Shown here one piece after another: positions 6,963 to 64,000 of a DNA stretch of 64,000 nucleotides. Under the pieces are notes generated by a model, which saw only the letters and a list, made by a program, of their open reading frames with translations, had not been told where the DNA came from and searched no databases. The stretch's first letter is position 1, and every line of letters begins with the position of its first letter. This DNA is from an uncultured Eubacteriales bacterium (GTDB lineage Bacteria; Bacillota; Clostridia; Peptostreptococcales; Anaerovoracaceae): assembly GCA_902774265.1 (NCBI GenBank), contig CACYHR010000025.1, forward strand, positions 1-64,000, written 5' to 3'. The translations under genes and the position numbers were made by a program.

Positions 6963-10179
<3,217 letters not shown>

Positions 10180-48851: not shown

Positions 48852-49766
48852 ATGGAAGGAAAATGGTCGGTATATTTTCAGAATCCGGAGTTCATTGAGC
48901 AGACAAGAATGAGTATGGCTCTTCCGGAGTACAAGCCCCTTATACGGAAATGGTGCGGTATCAGGGATGGAGCCGAAGTGCTTGATGTCGGCTGCGGTAC
49001 AGGTTATTTCGCGCGTCTGCTCGCGGGCGGTGATGAGGATGTTACTGTTACCGGTATAGACCGTGATGACATATTTATCGATTATGCAAAGAGAAAGGCT
49101 TCGGAAGAAAGTCTGGATATAGATTTTGTCCTGGGAGATGCCCTGCATCTGCCTTTTGAGGATAATAGCTTTGATGTGGTCGGAAGCCATACGTTTCTTA
49201 CTAGCATGCCCGACCCGAAAGGAGCTTTTGACGAGATGAAGAGGGTAGTCAGGCCGGGCGGAATCATAGCATCAGTAACGTCTATGAGTTTCTACCCTCC
49301 CGGGATCTCGCTTGGAATATATCCTGAGGAATGCGATGTATGGAAAAAGGAAATGGATACCCTTCTGATCAGGCTCACAAGGGCATACATGAAGATCGAT
49401 CCGATCTCCGAGCGCGCTTCAGGCGTGGCTCCTGCGGCTGTACCGCACTTCTTTGCCGAACAGGGCATGGAACGTGTTTCTGCATATCCTGTAGGTCACA
49501 TGGTTTCTGTTTCGAATGCTGCGATGCCGGTCGAAGACAAGGTCCGCTGGATAGAGCTGTACAGAGAATCAGAGATCAAAAAGCTGGACGCGTTTATGGA
49601 GCTCCCTGAGATGTCTGAGATGTTCAGCCCTGAAGAAGCGGTCAGATACAGGGAACTGCTGGATCGGAAGTGCGACTTCCTTCTCTCAGACCTGACGGAA
49701 AACCGCATATGGGACTGGAGAGGCAATGCGAATCTGCTGGTTACGGGAATAAAACCCGTAGAATAA
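48852..49766 (+). CDS. Class I SAM-dependent methyltransferase
   Basis: The 304-residue protein has a UbiE/Methyltransf_11-like core: VLDVGCGTGYFARLLA near residue 44 (SAM loop), GIDRDD (acidic residue to the ribose), DALHLPFEDNSFDVV near 96-110, and VRPGGIIASVT. The C-terminal third is helical and presumably holds the substrate, probably a small molecule. GGGAGG lies 17 bases upstream, farther than usual. Its leader carries an attenuator-like structure. Confidence 0.85.
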   Translation: MEGKWSVYFQNPEFIEQTRMSMALPEYKPLIRKWCGIRDGAEVLDVGCGTGYFARLLAGGDEDVTVTGIDRDDIFIDYAKRKASEESLDIDFVLGDALHLPFEDNSFDVVGSHTFLTSMPDPKGAFDEMKRVVRPGGIIASVTSMSFYPPGISLGIYPEECDVWKKEMDTLLIRLTRAYMKIDPISERASGVAPAAVPHFFAEQGMERVSAYPVGHMVSVSNAAMPVEDKVRWIELYRESEIKKLDAFMELPEMSEMFSPEEAVRYRELLDRKCDFLLSDLTENRIWDWRGNANLLVTGIKPVE

Positions 49767-49944: not shown

Positions 49945-52722
49945 ATGAAGAGTAATAGGATATTTAGCATGATGCTCAGCCTTATGCTGTTACTGGGGAT
50001 GATGCCGGGACTGAGTCCGGCAGCATATGCCGATGACGGCACAACATGGAGCGAGAACCGGATCTTTAATGACGATGTAAGTTTTAATAATGGTGTCAGG
50101 ATCAGTAACGATATCACAGTGACGATTGCTGCAGGCAGGAAGGTGTCTGTTAATGGCGGAATCGATGCGGAAAACAAGACTCTTACTGTCAATGGCCACG
50201 GTATGTTGATTGTCAACGGCAGTAACGCCTACGACAGCAGCGGTGACGCCGACGATGGCAGTACCGGCTTTGCAGGAAACATCGTTGTTGAGGGTGCTTC
50301 AATCATTGTGACGGGCGGCCGCGGTGGCGATGGCGGCGACAACAATTATGGCGGCCACGGTGGTGACGGCGGCCGTGGCGTGAGCGGCGATGTTACAGTC
50401 AACAGCGGTTCTGTAAATGTGACCGGCGGCAACGGCGGCAACGGCGGTAATGGAAAAAGCTGGAGCAACGGCGGCAACGGCGGCGAAGGAGGCATGGGAG
50501 TAAGCGGAGAAGTTACAGTAAACGGCGGCTCTTTAAGTGTTACAGGCGGCAATGGCGGCAATGGCGGTAATGCAGAGAGCGGCGGCTACGGCGGCCAGGG
50601 TGGTGACGGCATGTTTGACACTGTTACAGTTAATGGCGGTTCAATCATTGTGTCAGGCGGTGATGGCGGCAGCGCCGGCAGCGGCAAGGATAGCACCGAG
50701 GATGGCGTTGATGGCATCGGCGGCTTCGGCATATACGATGACATTATCCTCAACGGAGGAATTGCAGCTGTGACCGGCGGCAATGACAGACAGGCGATCA
50801 CAGGTAAAATCGGCGGACCATACACTGAGATCAGGGAAAGCGATGATGGTGAAAACTGGTCTCTCGTTTCCGGCACATCTTCAGAAAAGAAGTATGTTAA
50901 GGCGGAAGCTAAATATCCTCTGTGGATCGGCGGCACTCAGGTGACGATAGCGAACAGGAATAACGTGCTGGGTGACGGCAAAGTGAGCTTCACCCCGGCA
51001 TCAGGCAGTGTTCCTGCCACCCTGACGCTGAAAGGTGTTGATCTCAACGGAGATTCTGACGGATGGACAGACGACGGTGGTTCCGGATACAGTACGATAA
51101 GAACTGAACTGAAAGACCTGACTATCATGGTGGAGACTGACAGTACGGTTACCGGTCCGAGCAGCGGGGAAAAAACTTACAGCTATGGCATATTATCAAA
51201 CGATAATCTGACTATCAGAGGCAGGGGTACGCTGAATGTCAGTGGAGGAAACCATGGATATAACTTTGGAATCAGCGCTGATAATATCATTATCGATGGT
51301 AAATTATCCGCCAATGGAGTCATGCCGACAGTGCATACTGATGCAGACAACAGCGGCGTTTATGTCCATACCGGAATTACCATCAACGAGGGAGCGGAAT
51401 TGACGGCTACAGGCGTCGGCAGCAACGGAATGGCAATCGTCGATGCTGATGATGCAAAACTGGTAAATGCTGTCGACGGCACGGGGTGGACAGACACAGC
51501 AGGTACAAAAGAAAAGACGGAAATTGTCAAAGGCAATCATAAGCTTGAAGAACTGCAGAATTATAAGAAGGTGCAGTTCCCCGGAGTGCCTGAGCCGGCA
51601 AAAAAATATACTGTTACATTCACAGACGGACAGGGGAATACTCTGGATGTCCAGTCTGTTGAGGAAGGAAAAGCAGCGACAGCTCCTGCAGACCCTGCAA
51701 GAGAAGGATATAGCTTCAACGGATGGGATACTGATTTCAGCAAAGTCAGATCGGATCTGACCGTAACAGCTAAGTGGAAGCAGATCATCGTGACCCACAA
51801 GGTGACTTTTGAAGACGGAATGGGGAAGGTGCTGGATACACAGGATGTTGTCGATGGAAGACCTGCGACAGCTCCGGCAGCTCCGACAAGAGCCGGATAT
51901 ATTTTCGCGGGCTGGGATACAGACTTCAGCAGTGTCACGACAGACCTGACAGTTAAGGCACGCTGGGAGAAAGAGTCTGCGAAAACCGACTCATATAAAG
52001 TCGTATTTGTGCTCGGGTTCGGATACGATCCGGTCTCTGTGGAGGTCGGCAAAGGAGGATCGGCAGCAGCTCCTGCGGTTCCGAAGGTAGACGGATTCAC
52101 ATTTATCGGATGGGATAAAGAATTCAGCAACGTCACAGAGAATATGACGGTAACGGCTAAATGGGAGAAGGATACACTTGGAAAAGTGCATACAGTTGTA
52201 TTCGTGGATGGTTACAATGTAGTGCCTATACGTATACAGCGCGTAAAAGACGGCACAGCCGCCGTTCCGCCGGCAGATCCTGTAAGAGAAGGCTATACTT
52301 TTGACGGATGGGACACGGATTTCAGCTATGTCACATCAGATCTGACTGTCATTGCACAGTGGACACAGAACGCAGCGACGGTAAAAACCATCACGGTCAA
52401 TTCCAAAACGGTAAGCGCAAGTGTCCTGGATGCAGCAGTTAAAAAAGCCGGATGCAGGAGAAATACAATTACAACGATCACTCTCGGCAAAAAGGTAAAG
52501 AAGATCAGCAAGGGAGCGTTCAAAAATTACAGAAATGCAAAGACCTTGATCGTAAAGACAAAGAAGCTGACGAAGAAATCCGTAAAGGGTTCTCTCAAAG
52601 GCTCTAAGGTCAGGACGGTAAAGATCAAAGTCGGAAAGAAGAAGACCAATAAAAAGTATGTTAAGAAGTATAAGAAGATCTTTACAAAGAAGAATGCCGG
52701 CAGGAAAGTCCGCGTAAGATGA
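49945..52722 (+). CDS. Secreted surface protein with glycine-rich region and InlB-type repeats
   Basis: AAGGAGAAG precedes ATG 49945. The 925-residue product starts with a signal peptide (MMLSLMLLLGMMPGLSPAAYA). Residues about 105-290 are a glycine-rich array (repeated GGNGGNGG and VNGGSxxVxGG units). Then comes a domain opening with LWIGGTQVTIANRNNVLGDGKVSF, related to the repeats of the protein at 43758. Four InlB B/Listeria-Bacteroides repeats follow (residues about 550-810, each ending with GYxFxGWDxDFS...TVxAxW), then a very basic C-terminus (about 830-925) with an LRR-like ITLGKKVKKISKGAF. There is no LPXTG motif, so the basic tail may bind the wall. Confidence 0.88.
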   Translation: MKSNRIFSMMLSLMLLLGMMPGLSPAAYADDGTTWSENRIFNDDVSFNNGVRISNDITVTIAAGRKVSVNGGIDAENKTLTVNGHGMLIVNGSNAYDSSGDADDGSTGFAGNIVVEGASIIVTGGRGGDGGDNNYGGHGGDGGRGVSGDVTVNSGSVNVTGGNGGNGGNGKSWSNGGNGGEGGMGVSGEVTVNGGSLSVTGGNGGNGGNAESGGYGGQGGDGMFDTVTVNGGSIIVSGGDGGSAGSGKDSTEDGVDGIGGFGIYDDIILNGGIAAVTGGNDRQAITGKIGGPYTEIRESDDGENWSLVSGTSSEKKYVKAEAKYPLWIGGTQVTIANRNNVLGDGKVSFTPASGSVPATLTLKGVDLNGDSDGWTDDGGSGYSTIRTELKDLTIMVETDSTVTGPSSGEKTYSYGILSNDNLTIRGRGTLNVSGGNHGYNFGISADNIIIDGKLSANGVMPTVHTDADNSGVYVHTGITINEGAELTATGVGSNGMAIVDADDAKLVNAVDGTGWTDTAGTKEKTEIVKGNHKLEELQNYKKVQFPGVPEPAKKYTVTFTDGQGNTLDVQSVEEGKAATAPADPAREGYSFNGWDTDFSKVRSDLTVTAKWKQIIVTHKVTFEDGMGKVLDTQDVVDGRPATAPAAPTRAGYIFAGWDTDFSSVTTDLTVKARWEKESAKTDSYKVVFVLGFGYDPVSVEVGKGGSAAAPAVPKVDGFTFIGWDKEFSNVTENMTVTAKWEKDTLGKVHTVVFVDGYNVVPIRIQRVKDGTAAVPPADPVREGYTFDGWDTDFSYVTSDLTVIAQWTQNAATVKTITVNSKTVSASVLDAAVKKAGCRRNTITTITLGKKVKKISKGAFKNYRNAKTLIVKTKKLTKKSVKGSLKGSKVRTVKIKVGKKKTNKKYVKKYKKIFTKKNAGRKVRVR

Positions 52723-52738
52723 TAAAGAGGAAAATTAA

Positions 52739-53494
52739 GTGAGCAGACATAATTTCAGAAAAACAATCTTAATCGTAGTGGAGATAGCTCTGTTGCTATT
52801 GCTTTCTTTTTTTCTGTGTCTGCATTTTCAAAAGCCCGGCAGGGAAAACAATGCTGTAGCAGTAAGCAGAATTATTACAGATTCCATGGATGAAATAGTG
52901 CCTGATTTCCCACTGGTTCCCGAAACAGTAGATATAGAGATTACTAAGGATTTCAGAGAAGAATTCATCCATGGTGACAAGGATCGAAAGTACCAGAAGT
53001 ATATCGTGTTACACGACACGGAAGTTGACAGCTCTGCACAGTCCATTATCGATATGTGGGACAAGAACGAGAACAAGGTTGCGACTCATTACATCGTTAA
53101 TAAGGACGGAAGTATCTACCAGTGCGTGCCATTAAGCAAGATCGCTCATCACGTTGGCTACGGGAATACCGGTAACAATGAGAAGTACGGTGTGCAGGAT
53201 GAGAGCAGGGACGACAAAATCGGAACCGGAGAGCCGAATGAAGGAGTAACTGACTATGGAATGAACTCATATTCCATAGGAATTGAGATGGTGCATGTCG
53301 GTGGTGAAGGAGATTATCCTGAGCCGCAATTGGAAGCATTGGACAAGTTAATAGAATACATAGATGAGTATTATGGCTTTGAAAGTGAAATAATAGATCA
53401 TAAAGCCTGGAGACGCGGTAATTCTGATACATCGCCTGAATTTGAAAAATATTTTAACAACTACAAAAAATACAGAAGGCACAGTAATAATTAG
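52739..53494 (+). CDS. Membrane-anchored N-acetylmuramoyl-L-alanine amidase
   Basis: The start is GTG 52739, behind AAGAGG; there is no ATG alternative at the N-terminus. Residues about 10-30 are a membrane helix. The rest is an Amidase_2/PGRP-type zinc amidase: YIVLHDTE near residue 86 (first His ligand), THYIVNKDGSIYQCVPLSKIAHHVGYGN, NSYSIGIEMVHVGG and a late IIDHKAWRRGNSDTSPEF, with the second and third ligands. It would cut the bond between muramic acid and the stem peptide at the cell surface. It lies 16 bases after the surface protein gene. Confidence 0.88.
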   Translation: MSRHNFRKTILIVVEIALLLLLSFFLCLHFQKPGRENNAVAVSRIITDSMDEIVPDFPLVPETVDIEITKDFREEFIHGDKDRKYQKYIVLHDTEVDSSAQSIIDMWDKNENKVATHYIVNKDGSIYQCVPLSKIAHHVGYGNTGNNEKYGVQDESRDDKIGTGEPNEGVTDYGMNSYSIGIEMVHVGGEGDYPEPQLEALDKLIEYIDEYYGFESEIIDHKAWRRGNSDTSPEFEKYFNNYKKYRRHSNN

Positions 53495-53535
53495 CACAAT
53501 TATACCATCGAGAGGATAATACAAGGGGGACTGAA

Positions 53536-54246
53536 ATGAGAAGCAAAAATGCATGCCTTGTGTGCGGCAGACCGCTGAAATACTTTACAAGTCCAAAACA
53601 GATGGAGTGCTGTTTTTGTCATAAGAAATTTCTGAGTTATGCATGCTGTGAAGAAGGGCACTTCGTTTGCGATGAATGCCATTCTGAAAAAGGCATAGAA
53701 GCTATAATCAGCTTTTGTCAGAATACTGACTCATCAGATCCGATAAAAATCGTACAGACCATTATGAAAGATCCGTACATATACATGCATGGTCCGGAGC
53801 ATCACACGATGGTAGGAGCGGCACTTTTGACAGCATACAGGAATGCAGGCGGGGATATCGATCTGCCTTCAGCACTGGCTGAAATGCATGAGCGTGGCAG
53901 GCAGTATCCCGGTGGTTCCTGCGGATTCTGGGGTTGCTGCGGCGCTGCAGTAAGTACAGGAATGTTTATGAGCATAATAACAGATACGACTCCTCTGTCG
54001 ACCGGGACATGGGGTTATTCCAATGAGATAACTTCACGTGCTCTGGCTGAGATTGCTACATATGGAGGACCGAGGTGCTGTAAGCGCAATTCCTTTACTG
54101 CGATCCTGGCTGCAGCGGAATATACAGCAGAGAAAACAGGCGTAGAGATGGAAATTCCGGACAATGTTATTTGCACCTTTTCAAGCGAAAATCACGAATG
54201 CTTAGGAAAGAAATGTCCATATCATAAAAGCAGTAATATGATCTGA
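53536..54246 (+). CDS. DUF5714 cysteine-rich protein
   Basis: The 236-residue protein begins with a zinc-ribbon-like part (CLVCGRPLKYF...MECCFCHKKF...CCEEGHFVCDECH) and continues with a domain resembling DUF5714: GPEHHTMVGAALLTAYRNAGG, GGSCGFWGCCGAAVSTGMFMS and GGPRCCKRNSF. The tail has another cysteine pair. With about seventeen cysteines it should bind metal or an iron-sulphur cluster in the cytoplasm. It immediately precedes the YcaO gene (40-base gap), so the two may act together. The biochemical role of the family is unknown to me. Confidence 0.7.
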   Translation: MRSKNACLVCGRPLKYFTSPKQMECCFCHKKFLSYACCEEGHFVCDECHSEKGIEAIISFCQNTDSSDPIKIVQTIMKDPYIYMHGPEHHTMVGAALLTAYRNAGGDIDLPSALAEMHERGRQYPGGSCGFWGCCGAAVSTGMFMSIITDTTPLSTGTWGYSNEITSRALAEIATYGGPRCCKRNSFTAILAAAEYTAEKTGVEMEIPDNVICTFSSENHECLGKKCPYHKSSNMI

Positions 54247-54286
54247 ATAGAGCGCGGAGCAGCGGACTGCAGCTCTGTGGAGGAAT

Positions 54287-56113
54287 ATGTTGATAAATAG
54301 AAAGGCAAAAACAATGGGATGTAAATATAACAAGTATAAGGACAAAGAACCTGAGGATACCATATTCAGGATACAGGAGATACTCAACAGGGCGGGCCTG
54401 TTCACCGTTATGGATTGGATGGAAACCGGAAGTGACGGTGCTTTCTGCAATCGCGTTACTTTGTATCCATCGGCACTCGGAACTAACGGTAAGGGCACGG
54501 ACAGGCTCTATGCGAGCGCCAGCGGATATGCGGAACTGATGGAGAGGATACAGAATGTCATGCTCAGTATATCAGCAGTACGCCCGAGAGTGAAGGGACA
54601 CGGAGACTTTGCCGTATTTCCTGACGAAAAGGATGTCCCGGTTAAGGAACTCGCGGAACAGGGCGACGCGTTTCTTGAGTATATGTTTGAAAAGCTCGGA
54701 TGCAGTGATCCTTTCTCGAAACAGGTGACCCTTAAGAGTTACGCGGGCATTCTCGAGAAGAGAAATGACGGAAAAATAAGAGTCGTGCCGTATGCTGACA
54801 TAAGCGAGGGCAAAGTCGTATATCTTCCGGATACTGTAGTGACCTCTGTGTGCGGATCAAACGGAATGGCAGCGGGCAATACCATAGAAGAAGCGATAGT
54901 GCAGGGTATGTGCGAGGTGTATGAGCGTTATGTCAACAAAATGCTCCTTACCGGAAAAGCCGTGCCGCCTGAGATACCCGAAGGCGAACTGAAGAAGTAC
55001 AGCATATGGGATCTTATAAAAGAGATCGAAGGCGACGGAAGGTATCATGTATCCGTGAGGGACTGCTCTCTGGGAAAAGGCTATCCTGTCGTAGCTTCGA
55101 TAATAACAGACCGTCATAACGGCAGCTTCGGAGTCAAGCTTGGCTCCCATCCGTCGATGGCGGTGGCTGTTGAGAGGACTCTGACAGAAGCCCTCCAGGG
55201 CAGGAGCGTAGAGAGGATAAGCTCTGTCAATTCTTACGGAAGCAAAGAGCAGGCCGAATCCTATCACAATATCCCTAATATCATGAAGGTAAATGTCGGA
55301 GTCTACCCGGCAGCGCTTCTGAGCAGCAAAGCTGATTGGGAATACAGACCTTGGACTGAGTGGGAAGGCGGGAGCAACCGGGGGTTTGTTGCCCGTATGA
55401 TCAGCATGGCTGAACGTGACGGCTGGCATATGTATATCAGGGACAACTCGCACATGGGCTTTCCGGCAGTCCAGATAGTGGTGCCGGGGTATACCGATAT
55501 GTACACGATCGACCGCACATATTTCAGATCACTCAGGACCACCTGCAGTGCGTATGATGCCTTCTCGCACTTCCCGGATATTACATTATCTGAAGAGAAG
55601 AGCATACTCAGTATAATACGCTTCAAGGAAAACTCGTTCATCGAGAACACGCCTGCTCTCATTATCGGACGGCCTGTCACCGACATCAGAATGCGTACCG
55701 ACAGGATTGGTGCATTTATCGCATTCAGGCAGGGGAACTATGCGGTCGCAGAGCATTTATTTGCCAGACTTGTGTCCTATTATCCGGAGGATGATTGTAT
55801 ATATTACAAGGCTCTGATAAACTGGTGCAGGGCATTCGGTCTCGGACTGGATAAAGAAGGAGCCTTCGGGCTTGTTTATTCACTGTTTGGAGAAGAGATC
55901 GCTTCGCGCGTCAGAGCTGAGGCGGAGGATCCGGACGGAATACTGAAACGCAATTTCCCGAAGATGAACTGTTTCGACTGTGAAAATTGTGAACTGAACG
56001 GAAAAGGTTGTAATAATATGATCGAGGAAGAGATTTATATCCGGATCAAGGATGCTATGAAGGGAAGCGGAGTTTCGCAGCAGGAGCTGCTTGACAGACT
56101 GAGTTCATTGTAA
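54287..56113 (+). CDS. YcaO-domain protein
   Basis: The 608-residue product has the ATP-binding signature of YcaO enzymes: GTNGKGTDRLYASASGYAELMER near residue 65, GNTIEEAIVQGMCEVYERY near 205 and VERTLTEALQGR near 295. These enzymes activate peptide backbone amides with ATP to form azolines, thioamides or amidines. Size and the SNGMAAGNT context are closest to E. coli YcaO, which is tied to ribosomal protein S12 modification. The C-terminus adds a helical repeat part and a CFDCENCELNGKGC cluster. No cyclodehydratase partner is seen. GGAGG is very close to ATG 54287; ATG 54314 is an alternative. Two RiPP-like precursors follow. Confidence 0.88.
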   Translation: MLINRKAKTMGCKYNKYKDKEPEDTIFRIQEILNRAGLFTVMDWMETGSDGAFCNRVTLYPSALGTNGKGTDRLYASASGYAELMERIQNVMLSISAVRPRVKGHGDFAVFPDEKDVPVKELAEQGDAFLEYMFEKLGCSDPFSKQVTLKSYAGILEKRNDGKIRVVPYADISEGKVVYLPDTVVTSVCGSNGMAAGNTIEEAIVQGMCEVYERYVNKMLLTGKAVPPEIPEGELKKYSIWDLIKEIEGDGRYHVSVRDCSLGKGYPVVASIITDRHNGSFGVKLGSHPSMAVAVERTLTEALQGRSVERISSVNSYGSKEQAESYHNIPNIMKVNVGVYPAALLSSKADWEYRPWTEWEGGSNRGFVARMISMAERDGWHMYIRDNSHMGFPAVQIVVPGYTDMYTIDRTYFRSLRTTCSAYDAFSHFPDITLSEEKSILSIIRFKENSFIENTPALIIGRPVTDIRMRTDRIGAFIAFRQGNYAVAEHLFARLVSYYPEDDCIYYKALINWCRAFGLGLDKEGAFGLVYSLFGEEIASRVRAEAEDPDGILKRNFPKMNCFDCENCELNGKGCNNMIEEEIYIRIKDAMKGSGVSQQELLDRLSSL

Positions 56114-56187
56114 ACAATGCAGCGATTAAAGAATAAGAATCGGATTTTTTCAGAAGCAAGGCAATATAGTTTTTGGCCTCAAAAGTA

Positions 56188-56196
56188 TGTTATAAT
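56188..56196 (+). promoter_or_regulatory. Extended -10 promoter of the precursor genes
   Basis: TGTTATAAT is an extended -10 box (TGnTATAAT); no good -35 is present, as expected for this class. It is centred in a small palindrome (TATGT...ACATA) that a regulator might use. The start codon of the first precursor follows about 42 bases later. Confidence 0.6.
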
Positions 56197-56237
56197 TACA
56201 TAACAATCGGTGATTGAATACGGAAGGAGACCCAAAG

Positions 56238-56576
56238 ATGAACGAGAATATAAAAAAATTTGTTGAAAAAGCTATCAATGACAAGGCGCTGCAGGATAAG
56301 ATGGCAGCATGCAAAACTCCTGAGGAGGCTTATGCAATCGCAAGTTCCGTACAGGATGGATTTACCATGGAGGAATTCACAGAGGCCATGCAGCAGTTGT
56401 TTGATCTGACACATGAGAACGAGCTTACTGATGAGGATCTTGCAAAAGCTGCGGGAGGCACATCTGAAGAGGATGACTTTACTATCTTTCTCACCATGAG
56501 CGGGATCGCCGTATCAGCGTCGGCTGCCTTGTCTGTTGTGGAAGCGGCATCTGCAGCAGCAGGATGCGCTGTATGA
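56238..56576 (+). CDS. Nif11-type leader RiPP precursor peptide
   Basis: ATG 56238 follows GGAAGGAGACCC. The 112-residue product has a Nif11-like leader (residues 1-74: MNENIKKFVEKAINDKALQDK, TPEEAYAIASS, FTMEEF, ELTDEDLAKAAGG), ending in a double-glycine cleavage site. The 38-residue core is rich in Ser, Ala and Thr, begins with TSEEDDF, has a hydrophobic middle and only one cysteine (AAGCAV at the end). It would be matured by the neighbouring YcaO and exported and cut by the C39 peptidase transporter. The lack of further cysteines argues against a classical thiazole peptide. Confidence 0.82.
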   Translation: MNENIKKFVEKAINDKALQDKMAACKTPEEAYAIASSVQDGFTMEEFTEAMQQLFDLTHENELTDEDLAKAAGGTSEEDDFTIFLTMSGIAVSASAALSVVEAASAAAGCAV

Positions 56577-56597
56577 CAGAAAATAAGAGGTGAGGGT

Positions 56598-56840
56598 ATG
56601 AAAGAAGGCTTGATTATGGATAAGATAGGAATAGACGAGCTTAATAACGTGACAGGCGGATGTTATGGCGGAGATCTTGATTTCGGGGATGATAATGATA
56701 ATAATAATCCTCCGGAAAACTTCGGTAATGAGGGCCTGGATTTCTGGAAGACTGAGACACAGCAGAAGATCGAAGATGCGACAACTAATCCGCATTCAAA
56801 GAAATACAAAAACAAGGCGAAAAATACTCTGAAATACTAA
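56598..56840 (+). CDS. Second double-glycine precursor peptide, Asn/Asp-rich
   Basis: GAGGTGAGGG precedes ATG 56598 (an internal ATG at 56616 is possible). The 80-residue product has a short bacteriocin-type leader ending IDELNNVTGG (residues 12-21), the classical double-glycine pattern. The core begins with CYGGDLDF, has a run of Asp and Asn (DDNDNNNPPENFGN), and ends with a basic part. The leader differs from the Nif11 type of the first precursor, so the pair may give two distinct exported peptides. Confidence 0.7.
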   Translation: MKEGLIMDKIGIDELNNVTGGCYGGDLDFGDDNDNNNPPENFGNEGLDFWKTETQQKIEDATTNPHSKKYKNKAKNTLKY

Positions 56841-56879
56841 GAGGGCTTACGATGCTCCGCATGAGGAACACATTGCAGG

Positions 56880-57079
56880 AAACAGTTTGTCTAAGAGATG
56901 GACTGTTTTTTTGTTCTTGCAGATGTATTTCGCTTTACATGGTTACGGATGTTCGTTGAATTGCAGCCATCCCGCTGCAATAAATACCGACTGTAGGCAA
57001 ATAGGCAACATAAACCGGCTGAAATGTGATAGAATCAGTCTGGTTATTTATATTCGTTACAACACAAGGGAATCAGTAT
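56880..57079 (+). other. Intergenic region with terminator-like hairpin and dispersed repeat copy 2
   Basis: AACAGT (56881-56886) and ACTGTT (56902-56907) followed by a T run make a weak terminator after the second precursor. The dispersed repeat (GCAGATGTATTTCGC at about 56919, TGAATTGCA near 56957) matches the one at 48612. TAGAAT near 57029 may be a -10 box for the export genes. Confidence 0.4.
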
Positions 57080-58645
57080 ATGTCAAATCCATTCAGAAAA
57101 TCAGTAATAGACAAGCTGTCATCTCCGGAGAAGCTTGACCAGTCAATCATAATAATAGCTCCGTCATTCTGGGTCGCCGCTTTGGGCGGGCTGCTTGTTA
57201 TAGCAGTCGCTCTTGTATGGTCGATAATCGGAAGGCTTCCTGTCAATGTCAGCGCCGGCGGCATGTACATGGGCGCAGGAGGTCTGCAGTCTGTTGTGGC
57301 GGAAGCCGATGGAGTGGTAGATACCGTGTATGTGAACGAAGGAGATGAAGTTAATAAAGGCCAGAAGATAGCTCAGCTCGACTCAGCTGTTTTTGATGAG
57401 CAGATATCTGCTCTGCAGACACGGAAGACAGATGTGGAGAGCGTCACATTCTGGTCATCAGACGATCCCGAAACTGCGGATACCAAGCCTCTTTTAGAAA
57501 TAAAGGCACAGGCCGGTCTGGCCGATACAAACCTTACCGCAGATCAGATAGCACTCAGAGAAAGATCGAAGGCCCTTTCAAAGCAGAGAAAAACAACTTC
57601 GGAAGCCAAAGCAAAGAAAAATTCAGCTAAAAATACTTATCGTAAAAAGCAGGCCGCTTATGCCAAAGCACAGAATGCATACGAGAAAGCAAGTGAGGCA
57701 TACAAAACTGCAGCAGCTGAATTGCAGGAAGCAATCAACGAAGGCAAAACCGGAGATGAACTGATTCCGTATCAGACAGCTGTCGAAGAGACGGAAAAGG
57801 CTCTCAAATCTGCTGAAGGCAGAGTGAAATCTCGTGAACTGGCATTGAAAAATGCTGAATCGGCATACAGCATGGCAGTACAGACATATAACACTGAGAA
57901 AGCGACTAAGAAGCAGCTTGCGGATACTGTATCCCAGATGGAGGCGAAAGTAAAAGCCGATAAATCCGGAACGGGCAAGCAGGTAACGGCGCTCGAGAAG
58001 CAGTTCAACGCGGCAAAGGGCGGATTGCTTGACCAGATAAATCAGGAACTCAAAAAGCAGCAGAGTGCAGCAGACAAGCTGACGCTCAGATCGAGATTCG
58101 ACGGCAGGGTCACCGGCGTCAGTATAGCTGAGGGTAATGCAGTGCAGGCCGGAATGTCGATATGTACGATCAACTATGACGCCGAGGGAGAAGAGACAGT
58201 CCTTTTTTTACCTGTATCCGAAGGAAAGAAGATAAAAAAGGACATGCCCGTTATAGTTTATCCATCAACAGTGAACCGCCAGGAGGCCGGTCACATGGAG
58301 GGAAAGGTTACAGGAGTCTCAGATACAGTCGTATCTGCTCAGGAGATGATCAATCAGCTTGGCGATCAGTCACTGGCACAGGCATTCCAGCAGAGCGGAC
58401 CTGTGATCAGAGTCAGCTGCAGTCTTGAAAAAGACGAAAACACAGCAAGCGGCTATAAATGGTCGAGCAAAAAGGGGTCTGAGATCGAGCTTGATGAAGG
58501 CACTATAGTACAGGCGGATATCGTGATCGAAGAAAAGGCTCCTATAACGATGCTTATTCCTCTTCTCAAGGAGAAACTCTCAGTAAACAGAGAGCAGAAC
58601 GGGCAGAATAACGGACAGGCATCGCAGTCAGCTGAAGGAAATTAG
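57080..58645 (+). CDS. NHLM-type export adaptor (HlyD family)
   Basis: ATG 57080 follows AAGGGA. The 521-residue protein has a short cytoplasmic start (FRKSVIDKLSSPEKLDQS, characteristic of the NHLM secretion protein), one membrane helix at about 34-55, a lipoyl/barrel-sandwich half (VVAEADGVVDTVYVNEGDEVNKGQKIAQLD near 75), a long lysine/alanine-rich coiled coil (about 170-335) and the second half of the hybrid motif (LRSRFDGRVTGVSIAEGNAV). It bridges the ABC exporter to the cell exterior. The two ABC genes follow immediately. Confidence 0.88.
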   Translation: MSNPFRKSVIDKLSSPEKLDQSIIIIAPSFWVAALGGLLVIAVALVWSIIGRLPVNVSAGGMYMGAGGLQSVVAEADGVVDTVYVNEGDEVNKGQKIAQLDSAVFDEQISALQTRKTDVESVTFWSSDDPETADTKPLLEIKAQAGLADTNLTADQIALRERSKALSKQRKTTSEAKAKKNSAKNTYRKKQAAYAKAQNAYEKASEAYKTAAAELQEAINEGKTGDELIPYQTAVEETEKALKSAEGRVKSRELALKNAESAYSMAVQTYNTEKATKKQLADTVSQMEAKVKADKSGTGKQVTALEKQFNAAKGGLLDQINQELKKQQSAADKLTLRSRFDGRVTGVSIAEGNAVQAGMSICTINYDAEGEETVLFLPVSEGKKIKKDMPVIVYPSTVNRQEAGHMEGKVTGVSDTVVSAQEMINQLGDQSLAQAFQQSGPVIRVSCSLEKDENTASGYKWSSKKGSEIELDEGTIVQADIVIEEKAPITMLIPLLKEKLSVNREQNGQNNGQASQSAEGN

Positions 58646-58656
58646 GAGGCAGGCAT

Positions 58657-60753
58657 ATGAAAAAAAATTACGCCAAAACGCCTACTGTCTATCAGATGGA
58701 ATCGACTGAATGCGGAGCCGCTTCTCTTGCTATGGTGCTGGGGTATTACGGCAAATTCGTTCCTCTCGAAAAGCTGCGTATAGAAACGGGCGTCTCGAGG
58801 GACGGATGCAATATGGTGAATATAAAGATAGCTGCGCAGAAGTTCGGCCTTGAGGTGCGTGGTTACCGCAAATCACCCCAAACCCTGCTCGATCTTCCTG
58901 TGCCCTGCATCATACACTGGAATTTCAATCACTTTGTTGTCTGGGAGGGTCACAAGGGCGACGCCTGCTATATAAACGATCCGGCAATGGGCCGGCGCAA
59001 ACTGACAATTCAGGATATAGACGACTGTTTCACAGGCCTGGTGCTCACCTTTAAGCCGACAGAAAAATTCGAGAAATCGAATGAAAAAGAGAGTCTGTTA
59101 ACATTTGTAAGGGAAAGGCTCAGAGGCCAGAAGGGCGCGATCGCAGGGCTTATACTGCTTGGCTTTTTCCTCCTTATACCGGGTATAGTAGTGCCGATAT
59201 TCTCGAGAGTGTTCATAGACGATATACTGCTTGGAGGTAACGACGACTGGGTCACTGCGCTTCTTGTGATCATGCTCTTCACCGCATTATTTCAGTCGTT
59301 ACTCACATATTACAGAGCGCAGACCCTGCAAAAGCTGCAGGACAAAATGATAATGATCAGTGCCTATAATTTCCAGTCTCATATGCTGAGACTGCCTATA
59401 GGATTCTTCACACAGAGATATGCGGGTGATCTCTCAAACCGTATAGAGAATAACAATAATATCAGTGTGTTTCTGACAAGCCAGCTGGCCGAAGCAGTAC
59501 TCAACTGCATAATGGCTCCGCTTTATCTGATTCTGCTGCTGTTTTACAGCCCTCTTCTGACGCTTATCGGAGTCGTAATTACTGCTGTCAATCTGATAGT
59601 GATGCAGCGCAGTTCAAAAGTGCTGGGAGATATGTCTATGAAAGCCCAGCAGGATCAGAGCAGGATGATAGGGTCGCTCTTCTCAGGCATAAAAATGAGC
59701 AGTACTCTGAAGTCATCGGGTACAGAAAGTGAATATGCCGGCCGTATACAGGGCAATTACGCAAAAAGCATACGTATGGAGCAATCAATGGGTCTGACAC
59801 AGGAAGCTCTGAATGCGATACCTGAAGTATCGCAGAACATACTGACGGTTCTCACTCTGGTGATAGGCGGGGTGCAGGTTATACACGGAGATATGACCGC
59901 AGGCATGCTTGTAGCATATACCGCTCTGCTGAACTCTTTCACGGCGCCGGTCAATTCGCTTGCAGGCTTTATTATGAATATACAGACCACCAGAGCCGAT
60001 ATGGCCAGAGTCAACGACATAATGAAATACGAACTCGACGACAAATATGCCGAGGAAGAATATGCAAAATTGAGTGATAAACTGCTCGGAAAGGTCGAAC
60101 TCGACAATGTATCGTTCGGCTACAACGTACTGGATCCGCCGCTTGTGGGAGCATCCGGCAGCGGCAAATCTACTGTCGCAAAGCTCTGCTCCGGTCTGTA
60201 CAGACCGTGGGGCGGTGAGATCAGGTTCGACGGATGCCCCGCAGTGAAGGTGCCGCCTGAGGTGATGTCGGCAAGTCTGTCGACAGTGAGTCAGAACATC
60301 TCGCTTTTCTCCGGCACCATAAGGGATAATCTCACCATGTGGGACAGGTTTGTCACCGATGAAGATATAATCCGGGCAGCAAAGGATGCATGCATCCACG
60401 ACTTTATCACCACCAAGCCGGGTGCATACGAATATGAGCTGACAGAAGGCGGAGGAAACCTCTCCGGCGGACAGAGGCAGAGAATGGAAATAGCAAGAGC
60501 TCTTGTGAGCGGCCCGAGCGTGCTGCTCATGGATGAAGCCACCAGCGCGCTTGATCCTATAGTTGAAAAAGAGATAATCGACAATATCAAGATGCGCGGA
60601 TGCAGCTGTATCATAGTAGCTCACAGACTGTCGGCCATAAGAGACTGTGACGAGATAATCGTTCTCGATCACGGCAAGATAGTACAGAGAGGCACACACG
60701 AAGAACTGTCGAAAGTGCCGGGCCATTACCAGAGACTTACGGAAACGATGTAA
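58657..60753 (+). CDS. C39 peptidase-ABC exporter with apparent deletion before Walker A
   Basis: The 698-residue protein begins with a C39 double-glycine peptidase (ESTECGAASLAMVLGYYG with the catalytic Cys near residue 13; HFVVWEG near 91; NDPAMGRR near 107), followed by about six membrane helices (155-420) and an ABC domain. Walker A GASGSGKST, the Q-loop, LSGGQRQRME, LLMDEATSALD and VAHRLS are present. In this family about 16 residues of the type IxxxSLxxKPGxxVAL normally lie between the DPPL segment and VGASGSGKS; here DPPL joins VGASG directly (nt about 60144), so a strand before the P-loop seems missing. The length is correspondingly a little short. It would cut and export both precursors if still active. 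Confidence 0.9.
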   Translation: MKKNYAKTPTVYQMESTECGAASLAMVLGYYGKFVPLEKLRIETGVSRDGCNMVNIKIAAQKFGLEVRGYRKSPQTLLDLPVPCIIHWNFNHFVVWEGHKGDACYINDPAMGRRKLTIQDIDDCFTGLVLTFKPTEKFEKSNEKESLLTFVRERLRGQKGAIAGLILLGFFLLIPGIVVPIFSRVFIDDILLGGNDDWVTALLVIMLFTALFQSLLTYYRAQTLQKLQDKMIMISAYNFQSHMLRLPIGFFTQRYAGDLSNRIENNNNISVFLTSQLAEAVLNCIMAPLYLILLLFYSPLLTLIGVVITAVNLIVMQRSSKVLGDMSMKAQQDQSRMIGSLFSGIKMSSTLKSSGTESEYAGRIQGNYAKSIRMEQSMGLTQEALNAIPEVSQNILTVLTLVIGGVQVIHGDMTAGMLVAYTALLNSFTAPVNSLAGFIMNIQTTRADMARVNDIMKYELDDKYAEEEYAKLSDKLLGKVELDNVSFGYNVLDPPLVGASGSGKSTVAKLCSGLYRPWGGEIRFDGCPAVKVPPEVMSASLSTVSQNISLFSGTIRDNLTMWDRFVTDEDIIRAAKDACIHDFITTKPGAYEYELTEGGGNLSGGQRQRMEIARALVSGPSVLLMDEATSALDPIVEKEIIDNIKMRGCSCIIVAHRLSAIRDCDEIIVLDHGKIVQRGTHEELSKVPGHYQRLTETM

Positions 60754-63312
60754 ATGAAGCAGATTGTTCTCAAGGGTGGGGATATCCACTACACAAATAA
60801 AGACCGCGCCGTATACAGTATTGTTAAGGGACCTGTCCTTGTTTATCTTATACCGTTCAGAGACGGAGTCGAGGGCAGGAGGTTTTTGCTAGGCAGATTT
60901 GAAGATAACGAGTCGATACCGGGCTTCCACCATAAGTCCGATCTTTTCGGTGAATGGAAATTCGGATTTGTTGCGATGGATCTCGCGGGGCTGATTCTGG
61001 AAGACAGTGAGGCTGATGATGGGCTTCTCATGGACTTTTCTGAAAGCATCGGCATGAAACTGCCGAGGGCAGGGGCTTTTGATGAGCAGATCATAGAACG
61101 ATATGAACGCATAGCGGTAAAGGAAAAGGGATATATATACGCCGCAAAGAGGGAGCGTGCCCGCACAAAGCGCAAGACGCTCGGGATGATATCCGACTAC
61201 TTTGACAAGCAGCGGTCTAAAGAAAAGGCAGCAGGCTTTACGGAGACCGGTAAACCGCTCTACGATGCAGCTGCATATATCTGTGCTCGTGAGAAGATAA
61301 GCATCGCGCCGATTGAGCGCATCAATGAAGCATGCGGCCGCAGATATGATATAAACGATATCGCCAGAGTCTCGCATTTCGTTATCAGAGAGGTAGTGCT
61401 CGAAGAGGAATGGCAGCGAAAGGACTCAGGATCGGTGCTGGCTTTCCGCAAAGAAGACAACAGCCCTGTCGCCTGTGTGCCGAAGGGACCGAAAAAACAC
61501 AGAATGTACGATCCCGGGGCAGGAATAACAAAGCTGATGAACAGCGATGACGTATCAGAGCTTGAGGGAAAGGCGTACATGTTTTACAGGCCTTTTCCTG
61601 AGAAAGCCATTACAAAGATGGATCTGTTCCGATTCGGCATGCAAAAAGTATATCCGGGCGATCTGGTGAGACTCTTCGGTCTGGCGCTGCTCGGCACACT
61701 GGTCGGGCTTCTGATCCCTTACATGAATGAACAGGCATATGACAAATTCATACCTATGGGCAATTCCTCCGGTCTGATGCAGATCGGTGCAGTTCTGCTT
61801 GCGTGCTCACTCGGTAATATATCGTTCACGGTCGTAAAAAATCTGGCATCATTCCGGTCGATGAATACGATGGAATATGCGGTGCAGTCAGCGGTGATAG
61901 ACAGACTGTTCAATCTGCCTGAGAGCTTTTTCAGAAAATATGACGCCGCGAATCTCGGACAGCGGGTTATGGGCATAGCGCAGATATACAATGTGCTGGC
62001 GCAGAGCCTCGTCACGACACTTTTATCCGCAGTATTCTCGCTGCTGTATCTCTGGCGGATGTTCAAATATTCCCGTGCGATGTCTGTCTGGGCAATAGTA
62101 ATGCTGGCTGTAGTGATGGCATTTGTCCTTTATATGGGCTTCAATCAAATTAAATATGAAAAGCTGAAGCGTGATGCGGATGTGAAGATACAGTCGATCT
62201 CATTCCAGAACATCCTCGGTATCAATAAGATAAGAGATGCCTGGGCGGAAGACCGTGCTATAATGCGTTATTTTGAGCCTTTCATAGAATCACGCCGAAT
62301 CAACAGAACCAAAGAAAATTATACAAGAGTAGTAAATGCAGTAACATCGTCAGCATCGATCATATTCTCGATAGTCTTTTTCTATCTGATGATCCGTAAA
62401 AGCATAGGTCTTACTATCGGTGAGTTCACTGCATTCACGTCGGCTTTCGGTTCTTTCTCGGCATCCATGCTCACGATAGTGCAGAACTTCCTTGTGGTGA
62501 ATCAGGTAAAGCCTCTGTACGAATTCGCACAGCCTGTGCTGGAGAGTATTCCTGAACTGTCCGAAGAAACCAGACTGCCCGGCAGACTTGAAGGAGAAAT
62601 AGAAATAAACAACGTCACATTCTCATACGATCCCGGTGAGCCGCCTGTGATCGACGGCCTCAGCCTGCATATCAAGCCGGGTGAATACATAGGAGTCGTG
62701 GGTTCTTCCGGCTGCGGCAAATCGACCTTGCTGAAGCTGCTGCTGGGATTTGAAACTCCTCAGCTGGGAAAGATATATTATGATCAGGCAGATATAGATG
62801 AGCTTGATAAAAGAGAGCTCAGAAAGAAATTCGGAGTAGTGCTGCAGGATGGCGGCCTTATATCCGGAAGCATATCCGATAACATAACAATAACAGCGCC
62901 GAATACGGGCAAGGCCCGCGTAGAGGAGGTAATAAAAGAAGTCGGCCTCGAAGAAGATATAAAGAATATGCCTATGGGACTGCATACCATGGTAGCCGAA
63001 GGAGCCGCCACCATATCCGGCGGGCAGGCACAGCGCATACTAATAGCTCGTGCCATAGTTAATAAACCAAAAATTATATTCCTCGATGAAGCAACAAGCG
63101 CACTCGACAATGTGACACAGAATCAGGTGGTGGAGACACTCGAGAGCATAAATGCCACAAAGCTTGTAATAGCCCACAGGCTGTCCACGGTGCGCAACTG
63201 CGATCGTATAATCGTGATGGATAAAGGGCAAATAGTCGAACAGGGCACATATGATGAACTTATGGCAATGAAGGGACTCTTCCACAGCCTTGCGGTCAGG
63301 CAGATATCTTAA
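60754..63312 (+). CDS. NHLM bacteriocin system ABC transporter (ATP-binding/permease)
   Basis: The 852-residue protein starts directly after the stop of the preceding gene. Residues about 1-290 are a large N-terminal region with a cyclic-nucleotide-binding-like start (VKGPVLVYLIPFRDGVEGRRFLLGRF), typical of the second ABC protein of NHLM systems. Membrane helices follow (about 305-580), then a complete ABC domain: VGSSGCGKST, ISGGQAQRILIARA, IIFLDEATSALD and IAHRLS. Unlike its partner it keeps the IDGLSLHIKPGEYIGV strand before Walker A. It lacks a peptidase, so it probably pairs with the C39 transporter as a heterodimer. Confidence 0.9.
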   Translation: MKQIVLKGGDIHYTNKDRAVYSIVKGPVLVYLIPFRDGVEGRRFLLGRFEDNESIPGFHHKSDLFGEWKFGFVAMDLAGLILEDSEADDGLLMDFSESIGMKLPRAGAFDEQIIERYERIAVKEKGYIYAAKRERARTKRKTLGMISDYFDKQRSKEKAAGFTETGKPLYDAAAYICAREKISIAPIERINEACGRRYDINDIARVSHFVIREVVLEEEWQRKDSGSVLAFRKEDNSPVACVPKGPKKHRMYDPGAGITKLMNSDDVSELEGKAYMFYRPFPEKAITKMDLFRFGMQKVYPGDLVRLFGLALLGTLVGLLIPYMNEQAYDKFIPMGNSSGLMQIGAVLLACSLGNISFTVVKNLASFRSMNTMEYAVQSAVIDRLFNLPESFFRKYDAANLGQRVMGIAQIYNVLAQSLVTTLLSAVFSLLYLWRMFKYSRAMSVWAIVMLAVVMAFVLYMGFNQIKYEKLKRDADVKIQSISFQNILGINKIRDAWAEDRAIMRYFEPFIESRRINRTKENYTRVVNAVTSSASIIFSIVFFYLMIRKSIGLTIGEFTAFTSAFGSFSASMLTIVQNFLVVNQVKPLYEFAQPVLESIPELSEETRLPGRLEGEIEINNVTFSYDPGEPPVIDGLSLHIKPGEYIGVVGSSGCGKSTLLKLLLGFETPQLGKIYYDQADIDELDKRELRKKFGVVLQDGGLISGSISDNITITAPNTGKARVEEVIKEVGLEEDIKNMPMGLHTMVAEGAATISGGQAQRILIARAIVNKPKIIFLDEATSALDNVTQNQVVETLESINATKLVIAHRLSTVRNCDRIIVMDKGQIVEQGTYDELMAMKGLFHSLAVRQIS

Positions 63313-63365
63313 AGGTTACAATAGCATTGTAGTTATGCCGGAAAAAGAGCAGATCGGGATAAGTA

Positions 63366-64000
63366 ATGGACAGGGCTTCAAAAAAACACAGATCGCTTAA
63401 AACCAAAACCATAATAGTTATTCTGCTGGTATCACTGCTGATGATTCTTGTCGGCAGTGCCGGCGGTCTTGTTCTGTACAGCTATTCCACTCTTAAAAGC
63501 TACAAAAATGAGGCCAGAGATCTTATCTCCTATACGATGTCGATGCAGGACGGCGAATATATCGAAAAAATATTCAGAGAGACCCACAGGGTATATGAGA
63601 GCATGCCCGAAGAAGTCCGCAGTGATCCGACTTCAGATGAGTTCATTGAAGCTGTCATACCGCTTATCGATGATGATTACTATGCGGCGCGGAATATCCT
63701 TGTAAAGTGCAGGGAGGAGACTGTGAACCGCAATATGGCTCTTGTGTTCACCGATCCTGAGTCTTCGGCCCTGGTATATGTTATAGACGGAGATGTCAGA
63801 GAATGGGCGTACCTGCCGTGTCAATGGCAGGTGGAAGACCTTGCGCAGCTTGAGTCTGAACAGAGATCCTCATGGAGACTTATTATGACCTATGAGAAGG
63901 AGTACGGCTGGATCGGAACCGACTGTGACAAGATATACGATACAAACGGAAATGTGATCGGATATGCTGTAATGGATCTGGACATCAATGATTTTCTGAA
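63366..64000 (+). CDS. Membrane sensor protein, cut by the window end
   Basis: From ATG 63366 the frame is open to the end of the window (211 codons). A basic start is followed by a membrane helix (about residues 15-37) and an extracellular region that looks like a Cache-type sensor (YSTLKSYKNEARDLISYTMS, DDDYYAARNILVKCREE, MALVFTD, a WIGTDCDKIYDTNGNVIGYAVMDLDIN ending). Sensors of this shape usually carry a phosphatase, kinase or cyclase domain after a second helix, which lies outside. Placed 53 bases after the exporter, it may control the RiPP locus. Confidence 0.6.
   Translation, partial: MDRASKKHRSLKTKTIIVILLVSLLMILVGSAGGLVLYSYSTLKSYKNEARDLISYTMSMQDGEYIEKIFRETHRVYESMPEEVRSDPTSDEFIEAVIPLIDDDYYAARNILVKCREETVNRNMALVFTDPESSALVYVIDGDVREWAYLPCQWQVEDLAQLESEQRSSWRLIMTYEKEYGWIGTDCDKIYDTNGNVIGYAVMDLDINDFL

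Follow-up and report, generated by a model that had tools for sequence, protein, structure and literature searches.

The peptide locus

The window analyzed here, a 64,000-nucleotide stretch of contig CACYHR010000025.1 (assembly GCA_902774265.1) from an uncultured Eubacteriales bacterium, carries at 53536-63312 a set of genes, all on the plus strand, for a DUF5714 protein, a YcaO protein, a Nif11-type precursor, a second double-glycine (GG) peptide and an NHLM-type export machine made up of a HlyD adaptor and two ABC proteins, ABC1 and ABC2 (Table 1). This region had been described in an earlier prediction made from the nucleotide sequence, and the open reading frame (ORF) list and Pfam/NCBIfam profile scans confirmed both the gene set and its placement. 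The leader, the adaptor and both exporters score above the curated cut-offs of their families, and the YcaO family is tied to genes for ribosomally synthesized and post-translationally modified peptides (RiPPs); the predicted RiPP biosynthesis and export locus with a Nif11 leader and an NHLM machine is thus upheld. The Nif11 core does contain the single cysteine that had been noted, together with nine Ser/Thr and the C-terminus ...AAAGCAV. Also in agreement with the prediction, no E1-like or dehydrogenase partner for azole formation was found among the ten scanned window proteins (49945-64000) or in the methyltransferase encoded upstream, the rest of the genome not having been searched for either. 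This methyltransferase, two further YcaO loci in the genome, SpoIIE/STAS genes and a gap in ABC1 had been missed.

An E. coli-type YcaO with a cysteine tail

The best NCBIfam match of the window YcaO is NF040716, the E. coli YcaO model (E 3.6e-61), at 207.3 bits and so below the cut-off of 700 that this curated model sets for uL16-modifying YcaOs. Its first PDB match by sequence is E. coli YcaO itself (PDB 4q84, E 9.6e-43, over residues 9-406 of the window protein). An AlphaFold2 model built from 35 sequences (599 residues, mean pLDDT 93.4) aligned with 16 E. coli YcaO chains over 576-603 alignment columns at query TM-scores of 0.69-0.76, TPR domain included, against 0.35-0.45 for LynD, TruD, 7u58 and methanogen YcaOs. 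Judged by sequence and by predicted structure, the protein is an E. coli-type YcaO over its full length, including the TPR domain, and not of the azole type, as had been proposed. Its catalytic residues are intact: 13 E. coli YcaO positions (K9, S71, E75, E78, N187, E191, Q195, E199, E202, R203, R286, E290 and Q293), which we take to be relevant to ATP/Mg binding, are invariant in all 35 aligned family members. Overall identity to E. coli YcaO is 22% (125 of 560 aligned positions). A PxPxP motif was not found in the window YcaO, and the SagD-type model TIGR03604 gave 44.7 bits, short of its cut-off of 219.25.

Related YcaO loci were gathered with an alignment query, which yielded 67 named loci (L numbers below); a query with the single YcaO had confirmed no relative. 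The resulting tree of 79 rows, built by a quick method and with 26 of its 76 inner branches open, leaves out L113 and copies below 500 aa (for example L087 and L119) and includes L061, L068, L073 and L097 (381 aa) through translated match regions. In it, the window YcaO groups with records from Lachnospiraceae, Oscillospiraceae, Robinsoniella, Solobacterium and Coriobacteriia in a 17-row starred clade. The YcaOs of 35 of 63 named loci carry a strict CxxCxxCx(3-8)C motif at the C-terminus, and within the tail one cysteine is invariant and two more are conserved in at least 90% of the 35 aligned members; the four-cysteine tail is absent from the E. coli YcaO sequence. A tblastn search of plasmids with the YcaO returned 30 records, the best 20 of the 30 at 26.8-30.3% identity, several of them annotated as housekeeping ycaO.

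E. coli YcaO has, since 2026, been demonstrated to be a thioamide synthase acting on Met82 of uL16; in vitro it requires ATP, MgCl2 and sulphide (Na2S), E. coli is without TfuA, and the sulphur source of TfuA-free thioamidation of this type is stated to be open (PMC13063428; published work is cited throughout from excerpts of the papers named). The same excerpts report a few non-acidic E. coli-type YcaOs in RiPP contexts (PMC13063428), and the window YcaO, whose theoretical pI is 5.49 (that of E. coli YcaO being 4.40), seems to be of this kind.

Three YcaO loci in one genome

The genome to which the window belongs (3.26 Mb, 110 contigs, 90.8% complete) contains three YcaO genes and no match to TfuA, although the control search in Methanosarcina acetivorans did give one. 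Four Nif11 leaders were found in it, three above the family cut-off and one below, and each lies at most 6 kb from a YcaO gene. Since such zones make up about 1.3% of the genome, this proximity goes beyond chance.

The second YcaO, on contig C53 (L009), is 78% identical to that of the window, and its gene overlaps that of an FMN reductase. The same contig carries transposases, the single DUF4135 (LanM-type) protein that the genome was found to encode, and three Nif11 precursors whose leaders are close to the window's (AYAIASSVQDG...DEDLAKAAGG). A DUF4135 synthetase encoded with the precursor would be the mark of a class II lanthipeptide; the window cluster has no such gene. A transposase, IS110-like by eye, lies between the LanM-type and YcaO genes of C53. 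The third YcaO, on contig C58 (L010), is 39% identical to the window's and has two short GG peptides directly upstream (8423-8929), which are 75 and 78 residues long and nearly identical in their leaders. A peptide of this kind also precedes a YcaO 89% identical to that of C58 in L056, a record titled as a Methanosphaera metagenome-assembled genome and perhaps mis-binned, and L108 has a similar layout of GG peptides and YcaO.

Twenty-six Nif11 or Nif11-like precursor cores were compared; the set was picked by hand, includes two identical cores and leaves out the GG peptides of C58, L056, L108 and L098 and the second window peptide. Cysteine is present in 6 of the 26. In 20 cores the last residue, most often Ile, Val, Met or Ala, is directly preceded by a stretch rich in Ala/Gly/Ser.

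A recurrent neighbourhood and a fused methyltransferase

Neighbours on the YcaO strand and within 7 kb of it were counted in 66 loci, comprising 63 of the 67 named loci and the three of the genome itself; L061, L068, L073 and L097, in which no YcaO ORF had been picked, were left out, and the counts took separate neighbour ORFs only. The subfamily of the window methyltransferase was found in 10 of the 66 loci (own included), Nif11 precursors in 9, ABC transporter proteins of mixed types in 9, radical SAM proteins in 7, DUF4135 proteins in 7 with an FMN reductase in the same seven, and a further Nif11-like precursor in 4. Loci with this recurring neighbourhood occur in several separate starred clades of the YcaO tree. 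In a pattern scan, small GG-type ORFs appeared on the YcaO strand in 15/66 loci versus 3/66 on the opposite strand, although those of two of the 15 loci, L078 and L084, look spurious.

A tblastn search with the window methyltransferase, which also brought the fused genes to light, matched 11 of the 67 named loci. Nine have the gene beside that of the YcaO, and in the other two (L076:7251-9962 and L083:18990-21236) the methyltransferase is joined in frame to the YcaO N-terminus, with Pfam confirming both domains in each. In a class sample of 391 genomes, scored for at most six candidates per genome, the subfamily (E<=1e-40) occurred in one, namely the window's own genome, itself part of the query. 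The upstream methyltransferase very probably belongs to the pathway.

Ten loci have at least two YcaO ORFs (L053, L055, L057, L065, L066, L076, L083, L105, L109 and L113, those of L113 being fragments), and four of them (L055, L057, L076 and L083) have copies from different clades, which suggests an old (hetero-)pair. L053 brings together a methyltransferase, two YcaOs, a LanM-type protein, an FMN reductase and Nif11 genes. The cyclase matches of the LanM-type proteins are weak or partial (21.3 bits in C53, below the cut-off of 23.2; none in L053; short but over the cut-off in L071), and a simple pattern search did not find the GxxHG site in any of five such proteins, CHP or CHG being present in C53 and L071; dehydration without ring formation is thus possible for these enzymes. 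Elsewhere in the family, a 44-residue Cys-rich peptide (L104:9797-9931, Parabacteroides) is flanked by an E. coli-type YcaO and a radical SAM gene, the latter recognized by eye. In L051 and L075 an E. coli-type YcaO has in its vicinity a protein, identified by eye, that resembles CoA-disulphide reductase and contains rhodanese and TusA parts; this could possibly be a sulphur-transfer link.

Proposed thioamidation of the Nif11 core

We propose, as an account with about an even chance of being right, that the Nif11 peptides are modified by YcaO through a backbone oxygen-to-sulphur exchange that yields a thioamide, and are then exported. Leader-bearing Nif11 peptides would be made first; the YcaO would activate a backbone amide using ATP and replace its oxygen, most probably by sulphur, as E. 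coli YcaO does on uL16; and the same peptide would be a substrate of the upstream methyltransferase, which perhaps takes the YcaO product, because two relatives have both enzymes in a single protein. Of the C53 enzymes, the DUF4135 dehydratase, the FMN reductase and the second YcaO may act in trans on the shared-leader peptides (dehydration, reduction), in which case enzymes encoded on two contigs would share a pathway. Cleavage after Gly-Gly and export through HlyD, ABC1 and ABC2 would follow. The recurring neighbourhood supports the Nif11 peptide as the likely YcaO substrate, and sulphur as the incoming atom is suggested by homology. A chemistry other than azole formation, which the original prediction had anticipated, is therefore probable given the E. 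coli YcaO fold match and a core set with cysteine in a minority of its members; between the thioamide and amidine that it had offered as examples, homology favours the thioamide, and the amidine is kept as a rival.

Several observations weigh against the proposed account. No sulphur donor gene was seen in the cluster, TfuA being without a match in the genome, and the LanM-type protein lies outside the window cluster. In the majority of the 66 loci both the methyltransferase and a Nif11 precursor are missing, and within the window clade 6 of 16 loci (L054 and five Coriobacteriia) have no precursor within 6 kb, L061 and L073 lying outside that scan. At 125/560 identity the chemistry may differ from that of E. 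coli YcaO. Relative to three other ABC1 and two ABC2 proteins, the window ABC1 is without 16 residues (48 bp, in frame) directly before Walker A, which reflects either a natural deletion or an assembly fault, and this gap in the ATPase domain may impair export. The genome is, moreover, a 110-contig assembly.

The main rival is formation of a backbone amidine by the YcaO, perhaps at the C-termini of the cores. The model for this is ItfB of Bacteroidales, likened here by description and not by sequence, which forms an amidine at the amide between the last two residues (PMC10352776). The Ala/Gly/Ser-rich stretch near the end of most cores would fit a C-terminal site; Bacteroidales members of the family (for example L104, L105, L116 and L118) lie, largely by eye, near radical SAM, C39-ABC or outer-membrane-type genes, and their layout resembles BGC6-8 as described in the excerpts (PMC10352776). 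However, the ItfB-type enzymes may instead be represented by two short Bacteroidales YcaOs that differ in type (426-427 aa, with best matches of 25-28% over 121-220 residues), and the nearest full-length characterized enzyme of the window YcaO is a thioamide synthase. We regard amidine formation as rather unlikely.

Azoline formation on Ser/Thr/Cys residues of the core, with the YcaO as a cyclodehydratase, is less probable still. Nif11-leader TOMM clusters do exist (PMC4603692), and the window core would offer nine Ser/Thr and one Cys, but azoles are disfavoured because the cores are Cys-poor (20 of 26 are Cys-free) and the window YcaO has no PxPxP motif; the weak TIGR03604 match and the lack of an E1-like or dehydrogenase partner among the scanned proteins argue in the same direction. 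It would be surprising if the YcaO were, despite its full-length E. coli-type fold, a housekeeping enzyme that thioamidates uL16 and lies beside RiPP genes by chance: no YcaO was found in 35 same-genus relatives, some of them incomplete, three paralogues share one genome, the Nif11/methyltransferase neighbourhood recurs and includes the fusion, the protein carries the extra Cys tail, and in place of the pI of about 4.4 with no precursor nearby that marks the uL16 type we find a less acidic protein with a Nif11 precursor 101 bp away.

DUF5714, probably an adjacent bystander

The original prediction had assigned DUF5714 a role as sulphur or metal partner of the YcaO. The two ORFs are 40 bp apart, and the DUF5714 protein is Cys-rich and matches the model of MbdU, a metal-binding double selenoprotein, at 147.7 of 600 bits; a table entry to that effect, with nothing further, is what the excerpt gives on MbdU (PMC13188914). 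No relative was found in the PDB by sequence or among PHROGs, and no open-licence paper naming DUF5714 was found. Co-occurrence does not support the partnership. DUF5714 was present in none of the 67 related YcaO loci, by blastp on the picked ORFs and by tblastn with six DUF5714 proteins, which rules it out as a general YcaO partner. Among 35 same-genus genomes, many of them incomplete, DUF5714 occurs in 14 and YcaO in none. All 17 relatives with DUF5714 (three of them at order level only) are without YcaO, and 3.3 to 19.9 kb read around these 17 genes contained no relative of the window YcaO, no Nif11 and no HlyD.

The class sample has DUF5714 in 35 genomes (34 above the cut-off) and this YcaO type in 9. 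Three genomes, own included, have both, as would fit a partnership, and in one of them (G381) the genes share a contig about 33 kb apart, whereas 32 of the 35 DUF5714 genomes have no YcaO of this type; the overlap gives a Fisher p of 0.04 with the own genome and 0.15 without it. Direct adjacency was seen in the own genome only, whereas YcaO with Nif11 recurs, and the check that had been suggested, whether the YcaO-DUF5714 pair is widespread without precursors, showed that it is not. Given the 67 loci, the same-genus genomes and the class sample, the adjacency is most likely local chance, DUF5714 is probably a bystander and not part of the pathway, and the partner role is very improbable.

Other features of the locus

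Coordinates are collected in Table 1. The promoter-like TATAAT before the Nif11 gene does not appear in the output of the promoter/terminator scan, in which 15 terminator-like hairpins were found against 8.6 expected. The second double-glycine peptide has no family match in Pfam, NCBIfam (E up to 0.1) or PHROGs. Behind ABC2, the SpoIIE-type phosphatase and the STAS protein are a possible regulator of the locus; SpoIIE-type phosphatase, HATPase and STAS proteins, a regulator set of the partner-switching type, flank several of these peptide loci. Further downstream on the window contig (L045 from 16837) a second C39-ABC protein is encoded, and behind it an ABC2-like ORF begins. The interval from the methyltransferase to DUF5714 holds genes for a secreted repeat protein and an amidase, neither of which is among the recurring neighbour clusters. 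A SAM riboswitch (RF00162, 17440-17529, 60.1 bits), the sole Rfam match in the window over its gathering score, is unrelated to the cluster.

Table 1. Features of the peptide locus and of related loci, in order of position (window coordinates unless a locus is named)
Feature	Position	Strand	Evidence or remark
SAM-dependent methyltransferase	48852..49766	+	PF08241 E 2.2e-26; upstream, subfamily recurrent beside this YcaO type
DUF5714 protein	53536..54246	+	PF18978 E 4e-72
YcaO with TPR domain and C-terminal CxxCxxCx6C tail	54287 (or 54314)..56113	+	PF02624 E 6.9e-46; start 54287 lies behind GGAGGA, alternative start 54314
TATAAT with TG before it, possible own promoter of the Nif11 gene	56191..56196	+	by eye
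Nif11-type leader, ending in ELTDEDLAKAAGG	56238..56459	+	TIGR03798, 41.2 bits vs cut-off 32.3
Core peptide, 38 residues, then stop	56460..56576	+	part of Nif11 precursor 56238-56576
Second double-glycine peptide, MKEGLIMDKIGIDELNNVTGG leader	56598..56840	+	GAGGTGAGGG precedes start
Terminator-like hairpin at the junction of peptide and export genes	56877..56911	+	consensus match only
NHLM-type HlyD adaptor	57080..58645 (ORF from 57026; 57080 likely start)	+	TIGR03794 above cut-off
NHLM ABC1, C39 peptidase/permease/ATPase	58657..60753	+	TIGR03796 above cut-off
NHLM ABC2, permease/ATPase	60754..63312	+	TIGR03797 above cut-off
Start of SpoIIE-type phosphatase, running past the window, then STAS protein	63366..64000	+	PF07228 E 1.3e-44, PF01740 E 4.6e-16 (on L045)
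Partner-switching set	L045:5367-7388; L009:11806-13560; L057:3057-5685 and 20030-20356; L059:2374-2745		
Met-rich ORFs	L063:11864-12157(-); L064:11993-12220(-); L067, L068, L069, L070, L072, L078, L079, L081, L084		beside YcaO

A branch with methionine-rich proteins

Another starred branch of the tree, with 15 rows from Clostridium, Sporomusa, Lucifera, Selenomonadales and others, has a different neighbour. In 11 of its loci an ORF rich in methionine (12-32% Met), in some also Cys-rich, lies no more than 200 bp from the YcaO; when all 70 loci were scanned in this way, a single further one turned up, in L085, 2.9 kb from the YcaO. L075 has a similar ORF by eye, and the scan found none in L077 and L082 of this branch. 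Under random placement, the chance that 11 of 12 such ORFs lie so near a YcaO is about 1e-9. Nearly all gaps between successive methionines in the 11 proteins are multiples of three, in 7 of the 11 ORFs the first ATG is preceded by a clear ribosome-binding site, and the two proteins tested gave no Pfam family match. These proteins are candidate thioamidation substrates because E. coli YcaO modifies a methionine residue. A link of YcaO with methionine-rich proteins or with Sporomusa was not found in the open-licence literature.

A more general proposal, which we put forward only tentatively, is that Cys-tailed TPR-type YcaOs form a broad family of dedicated thioamide synthases, each paired with a substrate that its locus encodes: Ala-rich Nif11 peptides in the window, short GG peptides on C58, and Met-grid repeat proteins in Clostridium, Sporomusa and Negativicutes. 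If so, the repeat proteins would bear many backbone thioamides, the methyltransferase of the Nif11 branch would methylate the YcaO product, for example to S-methyl thioimidates, and the Cys tail could take the place of TfuA as an integral metal or sulphur-relay site, with E. coli YcaO as a tail-less relative that took Met82 of uL16 as its substrate. Small, easily expressed substrates, the Cys tail and the linked methyltransferase make the question of the sulphur source directly testable. This YcaO type, this methyltransferase and Ala-rich Nif11 cores also provide a handle for genome mining, one that reaches peptides which azole- or TfuA-based rules may miss.

Comparison with known systems

The window YcaO shares with E. 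coli YcaO the full-length fold with the TPR domain, the catalytic residues and the lack of TfuA, and differs from it in sequence (22% identity), in its adjoining precursor genes, in being less acidic and in its four-Cys tail. Leader, adaptor and both exporters are those of Nif11/NHLM-exporter RiPPs, whereas the modifying enzyme is here an E. coli-type YcaO with a methyltransferase. YcaO-TfuA pairs of the thioamitide type (PMC8120280) resemble the locus in the proposed product modification, but TfuA has no match in this genome and the YcaO is of a different type. With the amidine-forming ItfB (PMC10352776) the locus shares a GG-leader precursor, a C39 exporter and possibly a C-terminal site.

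Dehydrazoles, as far as the excerpts describe them (PMC10676384), combine LanMbC with an azole YcaO and have NHLP leaders, Ser/Thr/Cys-rich cores and a YcaO/dehydrogenase pair. The present family resembles them in that YcaO is accompanied in seven loci, C53 included, by a DUF4135 dehydratase whose cyclase match is weak or partial, and departs from them in its Nif11 leaders, mostly Cys-free cores and FMN reductase, the LanM-type protein lying outside the window cluster. Membership among the dehydrazoles was considered and rejected, as the YcaO is not of the azole type and no dehydrogenase pair was found among the scanned proteins.

The combination seen here, the Cys tail and the methyltransferase-YcaO fusion were not found described in the open-licence papers searched. 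Its parts are known singly, namely Nif11/NHLM loci, LanM with YcaO (PMC10676384, PMC7268733) and E. coli-type YcaOs in RiPP contexts (PMC13063428).

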